DNA from: Brevibacillus brevis | GTDB lineage: Bacteria; Bacillota; Bacilli; Brevibacillales; Brevibacillaceae | Assembly: GCF_001039275.2 (NCBI RefSeq) | Contig: NZ_CP030117.1 | Coordinates: 5,931,001 to 5,995,000 of the forward strand | Direction: 5' to 3' | Length of the DNA stretch: 64,000 nucleotides | Notes under the pieces: generated by a model | Seen by the model: only the letters and a program-made list of their open reading frames with translations | What the model was told of the DNA's origin: nothing | Databases searched by the model: none | Shown here: positions 35,929 to 44,805 of the stretch, piece by piece | Position numbering within the stretch: position 1 is the stretch's first letter | How the letters are laid out: each line of letters opens with the position of its first letter | Made by a program: the position numbers and the translations under genes

Positions 35929-38709
35929 CTACTGAACATTGGGATCCGTAGATTCTTCTACCTCTGCCAGTCCACGCTCATCGAGCACGTAATGTCTGCC
36001 TGTTTCTTTGTAACGCTCCGAATCATCTGACGAGAAACGCTTGATCAGAAAGCGCGCTGACGCTTCTCCCTCTACTGCTACAGGAGGCTGGAATTCCAGG
36101 TCTTCACCATCTCGAACATGGATGACAACGATGCGATCATGATATTCAATAGACAGGTCTTCCCGTACTTCTTTTTTATTGGCGTCGAGTGTAAAGGTCT
36201 CTCCGGATTTGTTTATCGTTACTTCAGGAAAGCTTTTGTCATCTTGTGCAATGATGTAATACAGGTAGTCAGCATTTTGGTCCGGAGCATTGCGTAATCC
36301 TGATTGTAATTCCTCATCTCCCTGTAGCAATCGCGTTACTTGGTCGATGACTTCTGGTATGGTCGGCAGCTTGGCGTGCTCGCCTTTCATGTAGTATCGT
36401 TTTTTCATATCCTTCTGGGCGTAATTGGCACTCATATACGGAACGGTACCGTCCCCAACGCCAGGATCGAGAATCGGGGACCATTCGTCATAAAAAGAAT
36501 CATAAAAGTAGCCGAGCAGTGTTACTTGACCTGTACCTACGATGGAATACTGTGGAACATTGATCGTTTTGTTATCCCACTTTTCATGCATCTTGCCGCC
36601 ATGCCTGACAAGCGGCGCATAGTCGAGGCGAATATTTTTGTCCTTTAAAAATTCGTCGTAGGTGTAGTACTGAATATTACTCTTTTTCAGGAAGCCAACC
36701 GTTTCAAAGTATTTTCTAGATGGTAGCAGCTCGTAGACGGCAGGTGCATAAGAGGAAATCACTTTCCCTGTTTCCTCATCCAGCCAAGGGATCGAAAAAT
36801 TGTATCCGTGCTTAAGAGCCTGATATGCCCGTGGAGAGCCAAGGAAGGGTGTGCCCATATACACGACACGATTCACTTTACGCTGGTAGGACACATTGGA
36901 TAGAAGTGTTTCTTTTACCAAGAGCCCACCCATGCTATGTGCCACCAAATGCACCTGATTTGCCCCACTTGCCTTCAGTGCAGCGTCGATTTCTTCTTTT
37001 AGAAGTTTGGCATTTTTGGTGCTGCTGTACCGCCAATCGTACGGCAGTGCAAACAAGGTACGGTGCTTTTTGTATCCCGCCTTCTCCAGTTCCTTTACCA
37101 TGCTGTAATACTGTTCGGTAAGTTCTTTTAAAAACGGTGCATAGGAAAGATACTCGATGGCGTAAAAATCGTCTTTTTCCGGGTGGATCGTCACATCACG
37201 GACGACTGGCTGTACATCTACACTATTTGGCTTGATTGGCTCCAGAGAAAGTAGCCTGCGGTGTTTGGGATCATTAATACCAATGAGACTATCGCCAAGT
37301 CCCAACCATATTTCTGATCTCTTTCCATTCTGCTCTACTTCGAGTCGCGATCCACCTACTCCCGGGATTAAGATAACTGGGATCGTTCTGTCTCCTATAT
37401 AAAGACTGTACGAGTTAGCGGTAAATCCCGAGCGTTTGCTGGCCATGACCTTGACTTTGTAGGTTCCAGGATAGGCATTGAAAATAATATGTTCATCCGA
37501 GTTCTTCGCTTTCTCGGATCTGGCGACTACTTTTCCAGCCTCGTCGAGCAGAAATACATCCATATCCATTCCAGTAGGGATATCCTTGAGAGAGACCTCC
37601 ACAGTGGAGGAGAGCGTAAAGGATAAGCTGTAAAAATCCACATCCGTCTTTGAATGAAGATTTCCTACGATATTTCGGTTATACGCATCCAGCTCGTAGG
37701 CTGCTTCCATTGTGTCATTCGGCTCGTATTCATCTGCCTTGCCTCCTCCTTGATCCGGGGAAAAATCAGCTCGAAGGCGGTAGTAGTAATCTTTCGAATA
37801 CGAGCCCCGCTTTCCAACGACCTTGATGTAGTACCATTTGTCTTTTTCCAGTGCCAGTCCCTCGATTAGCTCAGGCTCATTTCCATGCTGCTCTGAACGA
37901 GCGAGCTCCTGCTCCTCCTCATCGTACACATACAAATCGTAATCTTCGTTTGCCCGAATATCTGTGAGGGATATATTCATCTGACCATTTGTTGTTCCTC
38001 TGATTTTCCAAAAATCCACATCATCTTTACTGCTAATCTTTCCATGGCTGTCCTTTCCGTCAAATAGCCAGTCCGATTTGCTGCCCAAGGTGTCATTCGG
38101 TTCTACCTCAAAGCGAGCTTCTCTATTGCGCAGTTCTGCTTCTCCTGGCTTATTCTCGCCTGAAAAATGCCCATAAAATTCCTCTGCCAGCCGCGAAAGC
38201 TCTTCGTCGGTGGCATCCTGTTCTTGCTCTGCCTCTTCTGATGGAGCTTCGTTTTGGTCTTCGATCTCTCGTTCGATCAACTCTAGCGGTTCTTCCTGAT
38301 CGGCAGCCATTTCATTCCAGGGCGCCTTTTTGATTTTTATTTTATCTACAGTCGGCTCGATGTGTTCAGGCAACGATAGCTCCCAGCTACGTAAGGCCTC
38401 TTCTGAATCATCGATGAACATCGTTATCTGGATAGGACTATCATCCATAGGCATTACAGCGAGGGAAATCTGAGACTCCTCGTGAAAAGAACGAGTCTTG
38501 CTGTCGCTGTCCTGTTTAACAGACAGCTCGACTTTATCCGGAGTACCCGATAATTGTGCCTGAAAACGCACCTCTCCCTCGTCGATCCATGCCCATACCT
38601 CCTCTACGAATATCTCCCGTTCTTTTGCCCAGCCCTGTTCCACTGTATTTCCCAAGCATAAAGTGAATAGGAGAAGTACACATAGCAACCGCCGCGTGAT
38701 TATTCCCAC
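35929..38709 (-). CDS. Exported PPC-domain alpha/beta-hydrolase (lipase/acyltransferase-like)
   Basis: The 926-residue exported protein has a signal peptide, then an acidic linker region to about 195. Two PPC-type beta domains follow (about 200-315 and 325-440, each with EPNDT and DVDFW/DVDFY). An alpha/beta-hydrolase domain of the LCAT/PGAP1-like type comes next, with the oxyanion region VILIPGVGGSRLE and nucleophile AHSMGG (Ser near 592). The chosen GTG at 38709 follows GAGGGGG by six bases. A TTG at 38769 is in frame but gives no signal peptide. It starts 66 bp after the 1329-residue surface protein gene. Substrate unknown; lipid or ester hydrolysis is inferred. Confidence 0.85.
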   Translation of the reverse strand: MGIITRRLLCVLLLFTLCLGNTVEQGWAKEREIFVEEVWAWIDEGEVRFQAQLSGTPDKVELSVKQDSDSKTRSFHEESQISLAVMPMDDSPIQITMFIDDSEEALRSWELSLPEHIEPTVDKIKIKKAPWNEMAADQEEPLELIEREIEDQNEAPSEEAEQEQDATDEELSRLAEEFYGHFSGENKPGEAELRNREARFEVEPNDTLGSKSDWLFDGKDSHGKISSKDDVDFWKIRGTTNGQMNISLTDIRANEDYDLYVYDEEEQELARSEQHGNEPELIEGLALEKDKWYYIKVVGKRGSYSKDYYYRLRADFSPDQGGGKADEYEPNDTMEAAYELDAYNRNIVGNLHSKTDVDFYSLSFTLSSTVEVSLKDIPTGMDMDVFLLDEAGKVVARSEKAKNSDEHIIFNAYPGTYKVKVMASKRSGFTANSYSLYIGDRTIPVILIPGVGGSRLEVEQNGKRSEIWLGLGDSLIGINDPKHRRLLSLEPIKPNSVDVQPVVRDVTIHPEKDDFYAIEYLSYAPFLKELTEQYYSMVKELEKAGYKKHRTLFALPYDWRYSSTKNAKLLKEEIDAALKASGANQVHLVAHSMGGLLVKETLLSNVSYQRKVNRVVYMGTPFLGSPRAYQALKHGYNFSIPWLDEETGKVISSYAPAVYELLPSRKYFETVGFLKKSNIQYYTYDEFLKDKNIRLDYAPLVRHGGKMHEKWDNKTINVPQYSIVGTGQVTLLGYFYDSFYDEWSPILDPGVGDGTVPYMSANYAQKDMKKRYYMKGEHAKLPTIPEVIDQVTRLLQGDEELQSGLRNAPDQNADYLYYIIAQDDKSFPEVTINKSGETFTLDANKKEVREDLSIEYHDRIVVIHVRDGEDLEFQPPVAVEGEASARFLIKRFSSDDSERYKETGRHYVLDERGLAEVEESTDPNVQ

Positions 38710-38775
38710 AAAAATCCCCCTCATCCTTTTTCTAGCTTTACAGTAGAAAAAGACAGAGAGGGGGTGCAAATATTT

Positions 38776-41700
38776 TTACTGAGTCGTATGGTTGCGGATT
38801 CCTTGTCGTTCCCATGCATTTGCAATGATACGGAAGGGTAGTTGATAATCCTTTAGCTCGTGCCCTTGCCCGGAGGCTTTATTTTGATAGGGGAAGCCCT
38901 TGTTCACGTCAAAACGAAAGGAAACGGAGTAATAGACTGCGTAGCTCGTATCCTTTTGGAAGCCATGCTGTTTATCCCCCATCAAAGGCGTATCTACTCC
39001 CACTTCACGAGTTCCTAGCTTGGAAGCGGAATAGGAGGGGCCTCTCCAGTGCTTGGGAGACACTTGTTGCAAGGCTAGCAACGACTGTAACGGCGTTTGG
39101 CGCAAGCCAGTTTCCGAAATCCACGCTCGCGCAGATGTCACGACAGGAAGCTGGTTGCTCACAGGATGGCGGTGTCGATCCTTCAGCTCCACTTGGGTCA
39201 AGATGCGCTCCCCCGCGTAGTAATCGTTTGGCTGGCTGTTTGGATACCGATCTCTGGCATGATACGCTTCCCATTCGGCTGTATGTCGAATCGAGCCTGT
39301 TGCATTCGGCTCAAATACTTCAAAGGAGCGCTCTCCCCCTTTGACCGTAATGGTATAGCGTCCTGCCATTGTTTTGGATATGTTCTGTGGTTCACACACC
39401 ACTTCATCTTCGTCGTTCGTCGTGCAGCTCTCGTAGGACAGTTCAAAATCGACCTGATAATCCATCACGATGACAAAGCCGTTGATTTCTGCTTTGTACT
39501 TTTGGGATTGGAGTACTTGGCGCCAAGTCGTCTGTGTGGGGACCGTGGTTCCTGTGTACACGACCTCTGTGCCTGTAGATGCACTGCTTACCTGCCATTG
39601 CATTGGCGCTCCAGGGCCTGTCAGCTTCAGATCAAGCTGCGATGGCGTATAGACTGCCATGCTCTTGGCATCTGAAATCCACCCGGGATTCGCAGTGACG
39701 GTTACGTTTTTAATATCGTCCCCGCTGACTGAACTTTCCAATTGCGCCTTGAATTCCGTGATTTTCTGATTGATCTCCTGCTCTGTTTTTTGGAAGCCTT
39801 CGTTTATTTTCGACTGATCAATGACCACGTGAATCCTAGCAGGTTCACGTTCCCACACGCCATCTGCATGTAGCGGCAGTTTTTGTAGCTGTCGACCATC
39901 ACTGTCATAAATCTCTAAGCCAATTTCACCGCCATCAAAATCGTCTCCACCCCCAGGCGGCTCGGGAACTTCCCCACCAATGATTTTCACTGGCCAAGTC
40001 GCACGATTGTCCGTCCAGATCGTTTCATTTTCCGGCATGGATTTCGCAGGGTTGATATGGGCGATGAAATCCTCAGATTTTTGCGGATACTTCGTCGGAA
40101 CCGTTATTTTACGCACCTCTCCCGGCTTAAATTCCTTCACATCCAAGCTGGTTTCCTTCACCGAGCTAGCCCAACGAACAGCCAATTTCGTATCATGCGT
40201 TAATTTCCCGGCATTCTTCACGTTGAATGTAATCGTCGCATCGGTTCCTGCGGCTTGAGGGCTCTTCGGATTAATTTGAAAGCTCGATTTCACAATAAGC
40301 AAATTCTCTCCATCCGGCTTTGGAGTGCCTTTTCCGATTTGTACAAAATAATGTCCGTCACAGCCATCACTTTGGGGTGAATAAAATTGCACCTTGTACA
40401 GACCTTCTAGAAGAAGATCGTTCCCATCTTTCGGAAAATATACCCAATGTCCATTTGTGGAGGTGTTAGATCCATCCAGTTCTTTACCATTTCGCTTTCT
40501 TTCCCAGTTTCCTGTGGCCGGATTGAACCACCTCATCGAAAAGCGACTATCCTCGGACAAAAACATGTGAAAACGATACCCGTCTGGAATTTCATCTGCT
40601 GCTATTTCAATCGTTTCTCCACGTTTAATTTCTTTGCTCCACTTTTGGTTTTTCAGATCAATTTCTACAGACACCAAAATATCCCGGCATTTTTGGTCAG
40701 ATTCAATGGTGAATCGTACTTCACCCGTGCAGCCAGTCTCGGACTCGAACAGCAGTACAATTTCATCACCAACATCCACAGTACCTGGCAACATGAGCCT
40801 GAATTGCTCGTCCGCTGCAAGCTTGTCGGTTAACGTTGTTTTTCCTTCGGGAGTCTTCAAATACCAAGTACCAGATACCTTCGAGGAAAACGATAGATTG
40901 GTATCGTAGTGATCTCCGAGATCAGTAAAGTATTTGAAATACACCGGGTCTGTCAGTGTATATCCTGAACTGGCTGATCCATTCATCAGTTCGCCTTCCG
41001 GGGAAAATGGCAGCGGCGGCTCGCTATGTACCAAGAATTTAACCTTTTTTTGGTCCGCTATTGTGCAGGAGGCATCTTTTACTACGATCGTGATTTCCCA
41101 ATTGCAGTCAGGCCGATCCTTCCACTGTGTCCCATCGAGGTTAAGCTTCAGTTTGTACGTTTTTCCTTGCTCAAACTGAACATCATACGGGTCATGAATA
41201 TTCCCGTACGGAAGTTTTAAGGTAGGGGAATGATAGGATCGCCATCTGCCATTGTCACTTTCCTCGACTGGTAAGATATAGATTTTTCCATTTGGAAGTG
41301 TCACATCCCACTTGAGCGATGCTTCCTCGCTATCTCCGTATTTGGTTGTGTATTTGGCTCGGAACGTTAGCGTGTCAAACGGCATAATCTCAATCGTTTC
41401 ACCGTTTCTCACCGCAGATGCCGACAGTGTAACGATGGGGCACGAGTCTTCGCCGTCTGGCGACTTGACTCTCAAATATTTCTCCCAGCATTCTGTTCCA
41501 TCATCACTGATGTAGACGACTTTTATCCTTCCAGAGCTCCCGATGCTTCCTGTCCCGACCTTCCTGTTGCCATTCGCCCCAGGCTTCATGTCATACCCAT
41601 TCATGGTGAACTTCCCCGATTTATTGGCATAGAGAGTGATTTCGGCATTTTTTTCGACAGCAATATCTGAGCCACCGCTTGCAACAGCATTGTGGTCTTT

Positions 41701-42765
41701 CATATCCTTGTCGCCAACGACTTGAATGTCCAGTTTGGTTTTTGTCGATCCGATCGAACAGGCTGGACCTGGGTCAGGCTTTTCGGGATCGGGTTTTTCC
41801 GGTGGGGTTACATCACCTACTGTGAATTGTGCTGTGTAAGGTGTGGAAACATTTATGCTGCTCGATCCTTGGCGACTTCTTTGATGCAGATCAGTGATCG
41901 TTAGCGATACTTCATACACACCTGGCTCGGTAGGCTTATATTCGGTATTTTTATAGGCCCACTTGTAGCCTGGGGGACTGCTTGTCTCGTATACCGTGGG
42001 GATAGCCGTGCTTGGATCGTTGAATTTTTGATTAGATAAGATGCTCTTGTATCCACGCCCTGTTGTCTTGTTGATCACATTTAAAGACCATACAAAAATG
42101 CCGCGGTCATAGTAAGAAAAGTCCGTGGCATTTGCATGGATCTCAACGGTTTCGTTGAGGTTGTATTTGGTTTTGTTGGTGGTTATGCTACCGCTGGGTT
42201 GTGGGGTTGTGCGGAAGTGGCCTACTGAGATGTATCCGCCCTTGCCGTCTGGGACGAGGTTGTCTCCTTTGGTGTAGCCTGCGCCGCCTGAGGCGGAGGC
42301 TAGTTCTGCGAGGTTGTAGGCTTGGTACTCTTCGAAATCTCTTATAGTACTACTAGAAACAGTTTTACTATAAACATTAGCAGTTCCACCCAAGATATAA
42401 TTTGGATTTCCGCCGAACCGTTTGATCCAGTAGTTCGTTTCACTTTCGTCTACGAAGTACCATCCTCTATCTGCTTTTTTGTTGATATCAGCGAATCCTA
42501 ATACCCTATTTCCATCAATGACCCTATCTACTTCAATTTGTGATACTGTTGCACCGAGTTCTCCATCTATTCCCGAAATCGCAAGAATGTCAAAATGATT
42601 TTTCGGTGCAAGCTCTTTCTGTGAATCTACAGTAGCAACACCAATGCCGTGGTAGTTTGGTGTTGCACCTGCAAAATTTGAATAAATAGTAAGTAGCCCG
42701 CTTATGAGACAAAAGGAGAGCACAGAAAAAATTAATTTCCTGTGCCTTATTATAAGTTTTATCAT
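38776..42765 (-). CDS. Large exported protein with Cys-bounded beta modules
   Basis: The 1329-residue protein has a signal peptide (to about 34). Near 185-320 it has a PKD/Ig-like region. Four modules follow, each opening and closing with a Cys: C336-C426, C442-C554, C567-C679 and C693-C802 (90-112 residues apart). A CARDB-like domain lies at about 820-930, then a less familiar C-terminal half with a fifth pair, C1114-C1124. Ten Cys in the mature part is unusual for a Bacillota secreted protein. Its ATG overlaps the stop codon of the SLH gene by one base, so translation is coupled. Function unknown; a surface structural or adhesive role is inferred. Confidence 0.85.
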   Translation of the reverse strand: MIKLIIRHRKLIFSVLSFCLISGLLTIYSNFAGATPNYHGIGVATVDSQKELAPKNHFDILAISGIDGELGATVSQIEVDRVIDGNRVLGFADINKKADRGWYFVDESETNYWIKRFGGNPNYILGGTANVYSKTVSSSTIRDFEEYQAYNLAELASASGGAGYTKGDNLVPDGKGGYISVGHFRTTPQPSGSITTNKTKYNLNETVEIHANATDFSYYDRGIFVWSLNVINKTTGRGYKSILSNQKFNDPSTAIPTVYETSSPPGYKWAYKNTEYKPTEPGVYEVSLTITDLHQRSRQGSSSINVSTPYTAQFTVGDVTPPEKPDPEKPDPGPACSIGSTKTKLDIQVVGDKDMKDHNAVASGGSDIAVEKNAEITLYANKSGKFTMNGYDMKPGANGNRKVGTGSIGSSGRIKVVYISDDGTECWEKYLRVKSPDGEDSCPIVTLSASAVRNGETIEIMPFDTLTFRAKYTTKYGDSEEASLKWDVTLPNGKIYILPVEESDNGRWRSYHSPTLKLPYGNIHDPYDVQFEQGKTYKLKLNLDGTQWKDRPDCNWEITIVVKDASCTIADQKKVKFLVHSEPPLPFSPEGELMNGSASSGYTLTDPVYFKYFTDLGDHYDTNLSFSSKVSGTWYLKTPEGKTTLTDKLAADEQFRLMLPGTVDVGDEIVLLFESETGCTGEVRFTIESDQKCRDILVSVEIDLKNQKWSKEIKRGETIEIAADEIPDGYRFHMFLSEDSRFSMRWFNPATGNWERKRNGKELDGSNTSTNGHWVYFPKDGNDLLLEGLYKVQFYSPQSDGCDGHYFVQIGKGTPKPDGENLLIVKSSFQINPKSPQAAGTDATITFNVKNAGKLTHDTKLAVRWASSVKETSLDVKEFKPGEVRKITVPTKYPQKSEDFIAHINPAKSMPENETIWTDNRATWPVKIIGGEVPEPPGGGDDFDGGEIGLEIYDSDGRQLQKLPLHADGVWEREPARIHVVIDQSKINEGFQKTEQEINQKITEFKAQLESSVSGDDIKNVTVTANPGWISDAKSMAVYTPSQLDLKLTGPGAPMQWQVSSASTGTEVVYTGTTVPTQTTWRQVLQSQKYKAEINGFVIVMDYQVDFELSYESCTTNDEDEVVCEPQNISKTMAGRYTITVKGGERSFEVFEPNATGSIRHTAEWEAYHARDRYPNSQPNDYYAGERILTQVELKDRHRHPVSNQLPVVTSARAWISETGLRQTPLQSLLALQQVSPKHWRGPSYSASKLGTREVGVDTPLMGDKQHGFQKDTSYAVYYSVSFRFDVNKGFPYQNKASGQGHELKDYQLPFRIIANAWERQGIRNHTTQ

Positions 42766-43664
42766 TATTTTGTACCCTTCGCTTTATAAAATTTCCGTGT
42801 ATTATCAACTCGCTCAAAAGTAGGTAATTTGTGATACATAAAAGCACCAGCATCGGTTGAGTCGTTATTATTTATGATTACTAAAGACATATAGTCTGCG
42901 CCGTTTATTAAAATACTGAAGGATTCATTATTTAAAAAACCTTCTTTAACGTTTTGTTTTGAGACAAACATCGCCCTTATCATAAAATCACTATCACCCT
43001 TAGGCACCTTCCCACTAATCTTCCCATTCACAACCTTCAAGCTCTTATGAAACTCATCCGCATACTTCGCCCCTTGCTCAAGCTGCCACTTATCCTTCCA
43101 CAAATATCGCAAAATCTCCGCCGCTTCGCCTCGCGTCACAGGCAAATCCTCACGAAATTTAGGCTGACCACTAGGTGCAGGCTTCATCCATCCCCACGTG
43201 ATAAGCGCCCCAGTATTGGTTAAATTCGGATTCTTTTCACCCCGAATCGGCTTCCATGCAGCATACACCAGCGCTGCCGTTTCTTCCTTCGTCAACAGTC
43301 TGTTCGGCTCTATCTTCACCCCCGCCAAAATCCCCGCCTTCTGCGCCTTCTCATAGCTCATCTTCGCCCAGTGCCCTGCCGGGAGCTGTGATACGGGTGC
43401 CACCTCCTTCAATCCGCGAATGGCTACTAAACTCGCGATAAACTGTCCCTGCGTGATTTGACTATTCGGATAGAAGTTTCCTTTGCTATCCAGCCATAAG
43501 TATTTCTTCTGTACACCGAAATCAATAGCTGCCTTTGCTGTATGTGAAGCGTAATCCTTCGCTGACGCTTTCGCTTGAACGGTAGGACTGTCAGCAACTC
43601 CAGTAAACCCTGCCACTGTGAGTACAGATGCTAGTAGGTACGACATCATTGCACGTTTGTTCAT
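42765..43664 (-). CDS. S-layer homology (SLH) domain protein
   Basis: The 299-residue exported protein has a signal peptide (cut after about VQAKA) and three SLH motifs (about 37-90, 93-145, 150-205). The last includes LPVTRGEAAEILRYLWKDKW. SLH modules bind pyruvylated secondary wall polymer. The last 90 residues form an unrecognised tail (GDSDFMIRAMFVSKQNVKEGF...), encoded in visibly AT-richer DNA. GGGGG lies just before ATG. The stop codon overlaps the ATG of the 1329-residue protein (TAATG), so this may be its wall anchor. Confidence 0.92.
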   Translation of the reverse strand: MNKRAMMSYLLASVLTVAGFTGVADSPTVQAKASAKDYASHTAKAAIDFGVQKKYLWLDSKGNFYPNSQITQGQFIASLVAIRGLKEVAPVSQLPAGHWAKMSYEKAQKAGILAGVKIEPNRLLTKEETAALVYAAWKPIRGEKNPNLTNTGALITWGWMKPAPSGQPKFREDLPVTRGEAAEILRYLWKDKWQLEQGAKYADEFHKSLKVVNGKISGKVPKGDSDFMIRAMFVSKQNVKEGFLNNESFSILINGADYMSLVIINNNDSTDAGAFMYHKLPTFERVDNTRKFYKAKGTK

Positions 43665-43700
43665 GGAATGACCCCCTCTTTACCGGATATTTTACCTATA

Positions 43701-44084
43701 TTATCCATTTTCGGAAAGAGTCTGATTGAGGTTCCTTTGCAAAAAGCTTCGCAACGTATTCTCGGATACCGCCCCTTCCAACTTATCGACAACCTTACCT
43801 TTTTCGACGACAAAAACAGTGGGGGTTGCCTCTGCCCCGAGTCGCGACGCTTCATCCAGCTCTTTCTGCTTATGGATATCCAGTCGTTGGATCATTTCCG
43901 GTGGATAAGCCTTCACAGCTCTCTCGAATGTCGGGCCGAACTCCGTGCAATATCCGCAGCTATCACTATAGACGTACACCACTCTTACTTCATGGGCACT
44001 GGCTGTACCCCACGCACTTATACCGACGGCAAGCATAACAACACCGAACGCGATCCACAGCCACCATTGCTTGCTTCTCCTCAC
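43701..44084 (-). CDS. Membrane-anchored thioredoxin-like protein (CGYC)
   Basis: The 127-residue protein has one N-terminal membrane segment (WWLWIAFGVVMLAVGISAW) and an outer thioredoxin fold. Its redox motif is C43-G-Y-C46 (SDSCGYCTEF), and cis-Pro lies in EATPTVFVVEKGK. I chose the GTG at 44084 because GGGAG is six bases upstream; a TTG and an ATG earlier in frame have worse spacing. It lies 36 bp upstream of the SLH gene with no terminator visible between. A role in making or reshuffling disulfides of the Cys-rich surface protein is inferred. Confidence 0.82.
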   Translation of the reverse strand: MRRSKQWWLWIAFGVVMLAVGISAWGTASAHEVRVVYVYSDSCGYCTEFGPTFERAVKAYPPEMIQRLDIHKQKELDEASRLGAEATPTVFVVEKGKVVDKLEGAVSENTLRSFLQRNLNQTLSENG

Positions 44085-44172
44085 GTCCATCTCCCTTTCG
44101 CTAATCAAAATGTTTCATAACCTATGCACTTGTCAAAGAACGATGCCCGTATTATGCGGCTCCGAGCTGAGA

Positions 44173-44201
44173 CAAAAAAAGCCAGCCCCATTGGACTGGC
44201 T
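44173..44201 (-). terminator. Terminator after ywgA
   Basis: The stem AGCCAG / CTGGCT (44180-44185 with 44196-44201, extended by CC/GG) is followed on the minus strand by seven T residues. A second weaker hairpin with eight T residues lies just upstream (about 44211-44250). Confidence 0.75.
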
Positions 44202-44277: not shown

Positions 44278-44805
44278 TTACATAAGTGCAGTGTCGCCGT
44301 CTTCCTTCATCAGCGCACGCAGTTCTTCAATAAATGCCTGCCCTTTTTGAATCTCTTCCTCTGTGTAGCGCTGCTTGCTTTTAAACGTAAAGATTTTGCC
44401 CTTCATTTCCTCATAAGGCAGGTGGTTGAAATACAGAATCGTAGAAACCAGCTCGAGAAAACGGGAATTCTCCTCGTTCATACGCAAAATCGCACGTTCT
44501 CCACTACCGAAGTCAACCTCATGAAACTTGAGAAAATCATGACCGGTTTCGTTCAAAGAGTAACGATACATATGAATGGCACCTTTACTCTCCATTTGCT
44601 CATCCAGAAGCCCCATGTTGCACAGCTCATCTACTCTAAGTGTCAGCTCTTCCGAATATGGTCCGTACATGTGAAACTCGTAGCGCTCATCGAAATCCAT
44701 CTCCAGATGTTTTCCTATGTACACCATCTTTTGCAATTTTTTTCGCCCGCTCACTTCGCCGACTATCTCAATCAGGCGTATGATCTTGGCGTGACGATTA
44801 AGCAT
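44278..44805 (-). CDS. ywgA: YwgA family protein
   Basis: The 175-residue soluble protein matches my memory of B. subtilis YwgA: MLNRHAKIIRLIEIVGEVSGRKKLQKMVYIGKHL, HMYGPYSEELTLRVDELCNMGLL and a winged-helix-like middle. Function is unknown. It overlaps the 3' end of the HD-hydrolase gene by eight bases, and its ribosome site (GGGAG) lies inside that gene, nine bases before ATG. Coupled expression is therefore likely. The same pair (ywfO, ywgA) is found together in B. subtilis. Confidence 0.85.
   Translation of the reverse strand: MLNRHAKIIRLIEIVGEVSGRKKLQKMVYIGKHLEMDFDERYEFHMYGPYSEELTLRVDELCNMGLLDEQMESKGAIHMYRYSLNETGHDFLKFHEVDFGSGERAILRMNEENSRFLELVSTILYFNHLPYEEMKGKIFTFKSKQRYTEEEIQKGQAFIEELRALMKEDGDTALM

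Follow-up and report, generated by a model that had tools for sequence, protein, structure and literature searches.

What does a thioredoxin-like gene do beside a giant exported protein with paired cysteines, and what would such a protein serve at the cell surface? The question is raised by an operon in a stretch of 64,000 nucleotides from Brevibacillus brevis (contig NZ_CP030117.1, positions 5,931,001 to 5,995,000; hereafter the window, from whose first letter positions are counted). The operon encodes a thioredoxin-fold protein (hereafter the thioredoxin), a wall-anchor partner with an S-layer homology (SLH) domain, a giant protein of 1329 residues and a hydrolase. The window genome has 6.44 Mb, and its giant is 90% identical to the Brevibacillus brevis protein P0001. 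The giant is part of a real, conserved surface system that we did not find described in the literature searched: among the matches listed for Brevibacillus Tad pili and for S-layer homology with thiol-disulfide oxidoreductase, none described it. Our best explanation, which we give an even chance, is that the operon makes a stalk attached to the wall and stapled by disulfides, together with a dedicated enzyme for disulfide quality, and that this stalk works for a Tad-like filament machine whose genes lie elsewhere on the chromosome.

The operon and the cysteine modules of the giant

An earlier note on this DNA, made from the letters and the list of open reading frames (ORFs), had placed thioredoxin, SLH protein, giant and hydrolase in this order on one strand. 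We found the four ORFs there, head to tail on the minus strand, with these features:

43701..44108, minus strand: thioredoxin, a membrane-anchored thioredoxin-fold protein with CGYC and Thr before the cis-Pro (ATPT), ORF of 135 aa (ORF list, Pfam, motif)
42765..43664, minus strand: anchor, the wall-anchor partner with SLH domain, 299 aa, no Cys (ORF list, Pfam)
42768..43097, minus strand: last 110 aa of the anchor, common to the Cu_amine_oxidN1-type anchors, proposed docking domain for the giant (hhalign)
38776..42765, minus strand: giant exported protein, 1329 aa (ORF list)
41488..41760, minus strand: Cys module 1 (C336-C426)
41104..41442, minus strand: Cys module 2 (C442-C554)
40729..41067, minus strand: Cys module 3 (C567-C679)
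40360..40689, minus strand: Cys module 4 (C693-C802)
39973..40323, minus strand: CARDB-fold domain, about residues 815-931
38779..39972, minus strand: family-defining C-terminal region of the giant, residues 932-1329, mostly beta with one long helix
39394..39426, minus strand: C1114-C1124 pair, located where a long predicted beta-hairpin turns; the two Cys do not vary in 12 rows
35929..38769, minus strand: LCAT-like alpha/beta hydrolase with two PPC stretches, a frequent neighbour and not core (Pfam, locus table)
44180..44201, minus strand: terminator-like stem-loop between the upstream gene and the thioredoxin (consensus match only)

Base 42765 belongs both to the stop codon of the SLH gene and to the start codon of the giant (TAATG), the one-base overlap that had been reported. 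The gaps are 36 bp between thioredoxin and SLH gene and 6 bp from the giant to the listed hydrolase start. As the note had also said, no terminator-like site lies at the thioredoxin-SLH junction; in the region scanned such sites are not in excess (7 found versus 9.1 in shuffles). The thioredoxin likely starts with the GTG at 44084, behind AAAGGGAG, rather than with the TTG of the ORF list.

By Pfam, the window proteins matched Thioredoxin (E 1.5e-11), SLH (E 7.3e-7), LCAT (E 3.6e-70) and PPC (E 9.5e-13). The giant had no Pfam family above cut-off; its best match was CARDB (E 0.0026, 18.4 bits versus a cut-off of 22.7), to which it conforms in fold and not in score. Public records label many giants “ABC transporter permease”, a label that nothing in this analysis supports.

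The Cys of the giant are C19, C336, C426, C442, C554, C567, C679, C693, C802, C1114 and C1124, with module pairs and hairpin pair exactly where the note had placed them. The thioredoxin has C51/C54. The SLH protein has no Cys and the hydrolase only C10, C30 and C38, within its apparent leader (first 38 residues), so that its mature form would be Cys-free as well, as had been claimed. That the Cys of the giant come in pairs is borne out by its homologues: the mature number is even in 63 of 71, consistent with disulfide-closed modules. Seven of the eight module Cys are invariant in 41 rows and the eighth is conserved in at least 90%. In a structure model of residues 320–830 (predicted local distance difference test, pLDDT, 84) the modules are all-beta. 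C442, C567 and C693 are modelled immediately ahead of the first element of their modules, and C426, C554, C679 and C802 at, or immediately ahead of, a last strand. Disulfide pairing is well supported. Each module would be closed by one disulfide stapling its start to its last strand, and load would bypass the fold. In the isopeptide-bonded pilins of Gram-positive bacteria a covalent bond likewise joins the first and last strand of Ig-like modules; the giant's modules are alike in the covalent staple and differ in that the proposed bonds are disulfides.

The redox partner and the wall anchor

The giant is present in 26/26 genomes of Brevibacillus and in 37/39 genomes of the family Brevibacillaceae, missing from G028 and G030. 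The locus table covers 41 giants: 26 on chromosomes of the genus, ten in other genera and five second copies. Omitted were the fragments L030, L042, L045, L051 and L054 and a 44-residue match (G011:C8); L045 (G036:C6), a 464-aa piece stopping at a contig edge, may belong to either giant of its genome. Thioredoxin and SLH genes lie upstream of the giant in 25 of the 26 chromosomal loci of the genus. The 26th (L020) stops at a contig edge, and in its genome the thioredoxin and SLH matches sit together on a different contig. Given this conserved gene order, we rejected a chance neighbourhood of the genes.

One redox gene was found at each of the 40 readable loci, the remaining locus being cut upstream. 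It is a thioredoxin at 27 loci and, at 13, a membrane-anchored SLH-like protein with a CxC motif (CSC in 12, CGC in one); both motifs were never found at the same locus (0/40). A redox gene linked to the giant, as the earlier note had proposed, therefore stands, with the thioredoxin replaced by the CxC protein in 13/40. Since the CxC-type loci do without a thioredoxin although their giants have more Cys (14 to 20), the claim for the thioredoxin is unsupported in its original form. Orthologues lacking the redox gene and carrying unpaired Cys had been named as what would speak against the link; orthologues without thioredoxin exist, and their Cys are mostly not unpaired.

CxxC was visible in 26 of the 27 thioredoxins, the sequence of L022 stopping inside the gene. 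The active sites are CGYC (20), CVYC (3), CRYC (1), CPYC (1, plasmid locus L056) and CGFC (1, L053), and Thr precedes the cis-Pro in 26/27. The exception is L053 (L053:10851-11279, genome G021), where this stretch is missing and the gene appears frameshifted past its active site, by sequencing error or decay. L056 retains, besides its thioredoxin, an SLH-like protein without CxC, the sole such case of 14 aligned. The thioredoxin-type giants have ten mature Cys at 25/27 loci (11 in L013, 14 in L056), and the CxC-type giants 14 to 20 in 11 full-length sequences, two others being cut.

In a 23-row tree of the giant the two types separate with 100/100 support, and redox type tracks the lineage of the giant, not the host. 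Two second copies are telling: L055 is of the CxC type although the genome's own copy is of the thioredoxin type, and L059 is of the thioredoxin type although its genome's own copy is of the CxC type. Both keep the redox partner of their own giant clade, the strongest indication that the redox gene goes with the giant. A private redox partner is thus fairly well supported. We regard it as improbable that the redox gene has a general envelope function, such as cytochrome c maturation or reduction of many exported proteins, with its position mere neighbourhood. The thioredoxin matches several general thioredoxin models, as this would predict, but all below the NCBIfam cut-offs. Against it, a change of giant clade brings a change of redox type, the redox type has accompanied its giant to a plasmid and to a different genus, and the thioredoxin (E ≤ 1e-10) occurs in only 27 of the 39 family genomes, namely the 26 of the genus and G027, which has a thioredoxin-type giant locus.

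What the partner does is suggested by its active site. The thioredoxin fold is clear (Pfam 44.7 bits versus a cut-off of 23.5; CGYC and TPT), and the protein shares with DsbC and DsbG the Tyr in the CxxC dipeptide and the Thr before the cis-Pro. CGYC with Thr-cisPro is described as the pattern of the isomerases DsbC and ScsC (PMC5909903). The NCBIfam equivalog model for DsbG gave 23.2 bits versus 124, so that the thioredoxin may work like a DsbC/DsbG isomerase rather than being one. It is also short (~127–135 aa), which probably leaves no room for a dimerisation domain, it is membrane-anchored, and its best library match is a plain thioredoxin. The active site of DsbG is CPYC, as in the L056 thioredoxin. 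DsbB/BdbC matches were found in 38/39 family genomes (G027 being the miss) and DsbD/CcdA-type matches in 39/39. Both families are common among bacteria and not specific; general oxidation and reduction are probably available. We therefore rejected the thioredoxin as sole disulfide-forming enzyme. The dedicated disulfide-forming pathway of the earlier note gives way to isomerisation or quality control, which fits the DsbB/BdbC distribution and the isomerase-type active site better. Judged from these sequences, the redox partner is more likely an isomerase than a primary oxidase: the general oxidation pathway (DsbB/BdbC) would make the disulfides, and the CGYC/Thr-cisPro thioredoxin, or the CxC protein in the sister clade, would correct wrong pairs.

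MdbA of Actinobacteria is described as carrying out oxidative folding of exported proteins and as linked to pilus assembly; it is likewise a thiol-disulfide enzyme of Gram-positive bacteria with surface-protein substrates (PMC5478893, PMC9974433). MdbA is, however, a general oxidoreductase, whereas the gene of the Brevibacillus thioredoxin shares an operon with a single likely substrate. The active site of this thioredoxin is of the isomerase type, and a sister clade has the CxC SLH-like protein in its place.

The anchor varies as well. In the window its SLH domain scores above the Pfam cut-off in one stretch (29.5 bits versus 20.8), two further repeats being recognised by eye only. At seven CxC-type loci (L039, L040, L043, L044, L046, L047, L048) this domain is replaced by Cu_amine_oxidN1 (CuN), shown by Pfam for L048 (E 1.3e-36) and assigned by similarity for the other six. 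The last 110 residues of the SLH-type and CuN-type anchor groups nevertheless match each other (hhalign probability 98.1, E 1.4e-13). Because this C-terminal domain is kept while the N half swaps, it is likely where the giant docks, and the swapped domain probably attaches to the wall; in the SLH partner, the SLH part would bind the wall and the C-terminal domain the giant. From anchor stop to giant start there are -25 to +35 bases in 38/40 loci; larger overlaps at L013 and L053 may reflect upstream start codons in the ORF list.

Giant copies in Tad-like operons

The anchor swap, a link to Tad-like filaments and mobile copies of the giant all go beyond the earlier note. All five second giant copies over 600 residues (in genomes G020, G007, G031, G036 and G027) lie within Tad-like operons, with CpaB/SAF-like, TadZ-like, TadA, two TadB/C-like and pilin-like genes; in G027 the pilin-like genes are downstream of the giant. 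TadA was matched at 5/5 of these loci and a pilin at 4/5 (not G007). Above the Pfam cut-offs were T2SSE in L056 and L057 and T2SSF and SAF in L056; RcpC was below.

The window genome has a Tad region of its own (C1, ~0.159–0.174 Mb; L061, L117), in which a Tad set with TadE is followed by a second, diverged set. Its first genes (TadA-, TadB-, TadC- and prepilin-peptidase-like) were judged by eye, with one stretch masked; T2SSE, SAF and TadE were above the Pfam cut-offs, T2SSF and CpaB below. The second set is the one matched by the Tad genes beside the mobile-element giants. Both the second copies and this region have the TadA-type ATPase, TadB/C, CpaB/SAF and TadE of a Tad system, and no Flp major pilin was identified in either.

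Three of the five second copies are on a plasmid or on contigs with conjugation genes. L056 lies on pBbsI, a plasmid of B. brevis NEB573 that has a VirD4-like gene near the locus and is typed in a database as non-mobilizable. The L057 contig carries MobA/MobL, T4SS-DNA_transf, TraG P-loop, TrbL and M23 genes, and that of L059 TraG P-loop and M23 genes; the mobile context of L055 and L058 was assessed only by eye. A TadA tree of eight rows unites four of the five second-copy proteins in one clade (100/100), the plasmid TadA standing on a long branch, while in the giant tree the second-copy giants are scattered. The G031 copy is sister to its own chromosomal copy (100/100), that of G036 (N-terminal part only) falls among its own genus, those of G027 and G007 are among the thioredoxin type, and that of G020 is at the unresolved base of the CxC type. 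Judged by this scatter, the giant joined Tad-like operons more than once, and the link between giant and Tad is moderately supported.

The stalk proposed above would be an outer-wall guide, anchor or adhesive part of a Tad-like filament; which of the three roles it plays we can only infer. Gram-positive bacteria have no outer membrane for a secretin, and the stalk would replace the outer-membrane secretin of Gram-negative cells. The second copies resemble Tad (type IVc) pilus operons in their CpaB/SAF, TadA, TadB/C and TadE-like genes, and differ in that Brevibacillaceae lack an outer membrane and in the SLH- or CuN-anchored giant and redox gene in cis. In Tad pili, the RcpC alignment complex is reported to form a conduit to the secretin (PMC12307814). 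On conjugative elements, the stalk would help to keep donor and recipient together. The conjugative plasmid TP114, described as having a type IV pilus whose adhesive part stabilises mating pairs, is similar as a conjugative element carrying filament genes; it is enterobacterial, its adhesin is a minor pilin with a shufflon, and the abstract mentions no wall anchor or redox gene (PMC9045228).

Several points weigh against a disulfide-stapled stalk of a Tad-like filament. The module model has a predicted template modelling score (pTM) of 0.54, pairing of Cys across modules is argued against only by the predicted strands, and among the 11 CxC-type giants of full length the Cys count is 19 in three, an odd number that leaves one unpaired or paired outside. 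The CxC motif may instead be structural or metal-binding. For several Tad-like members the assignment came from size, order and membrane pattern rather than from Pfam, and L059 has two regulator-like genes between the Tad genes and the thioredoxin. The window operon lies outside any Tad operon (TadA at C1:168751, giant at C1:5969779), and no chromosomal giant adjoins Tad genes, the two being >300 kb apart where TadA shares the contig. TadA and pilin matches are present in 36/39 family genomes and missing from G028, G029 and G030; G029 has a giant, which speaks against an obligate link. Giant and TadA are both missing from G028 and G030, but G028–G030 are one genus, so that this co-absence may be one event and is weak evidence.

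The separation on the chromosome and the giant of G029 would also suit a wall adhesin or matrix protein that is stabilised by disulfides, has a redox helper of its own and does not work with Tad filaments, as would the predicted string of Ig-like and CARDB-like folds, which resembles many adhesins. Mobile elements would then carry both as surface genes useful for contact. This we consider doubtful, as each of the five second copies over 600 residues lies among Tad-like genes, and giant and Tad came together on more than one occasion.

Returning to the stalk, we tentatively propose a broader form of it: Brevibacillaceae would have a Gram-positive Tad-type machine with a separately encoded, wall-anchored, disulfide-stapled giant and a private disulfide isomerase. 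The redox partner (CxxC thioredoxin or CxC SLH protein) would have been exchanged along with module number, and conjugative elements would repeatedly have taken the module over from their hosts, as an apparatus for mating that suits the wall of the host. If true, this natural gene swap would test how Bacillota cells direct a redox enzyme to a single extracellular substrate. The system would also indicate that Tad-type filaments of Gram-positive bacteria have a part at the level of the wall, and the mobile giant copies suggest filament-assisted mating in a Gram-positive genus. As Brevibacillus is a production host for secreted proteins with disulfide bonds, there could be practical uses for a co-evolved isomerase.

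The hydrolase, distribution and minor observations

The hydrolase adjoins the giant in 26/26 chromosomal loci of the genus and in 6/10 loci of other genera (L046, among the four without it, stops inside the giant), and is matched in 34/39 family genomes. It is absent from all four Tad-linked loci with a readable downstream side, L058 stopping inside the giant. As the Tad-linked loci do without it, we rejected the hydrolase as a core part of the four-gene system of the earlier note; it is a frequent but optional partner. A hydrolase system, with the giant and anchor as a wall-bound display for the LCAT-like enzyme, is accordingly very improbable. The 6-bp gap in the window and the constant neighbourhood in the genus favour it; the four Tad-linked loci and the misses in other genera, of which L046 is uninformative, speak against it.

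A profile of the C-terminal 400 residues of the giant matched 35 of 398 genomes of the class, 34 of them in the family. When a separate collection of genomes was scanned, 28 loci were found, 27 titled Brevibacillus and one Anoxybacillus sediminis. At the sensitivity used, the two scans indicate that the giant system is family-specific. The record titled Anoxybacillus sediminis PCH 117 (L101) has a C-terminal region 68% identical to this otherwise Brevibacillaceae family, and its name may be wrong. The single profile match outside the family was weak (G057, E 4e-5); there (L075:8247-14723) an SLH gene is followed by a 1736-aa exported protein with six Cys, with no adjoining redox gene, possibly a distant relative of the anchor-giant pair. 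Paenibacillus is reported to have Tad/Flp-like genes and a large extracellular protein, CmoA, which we rejected as a member of the same family on its described vWFA and IPT/TIG content and flagellar operon (PMC5072692).

Broken remnants of further giant genes in G020:C6 (L051) and G024:C67 (L030) suggest that giant copies are gained and lost. In the window, the end of the SLH gene and the start of the giant (~42600–42960) appear AT-rich by eye and differ from the preceding sequence. A conserved 175-aa neighbour at 44278–44805, found in other genera too, weakly matches a portion of the model for the DarG antitoxin (E 2e-4, well short of the cut-off).

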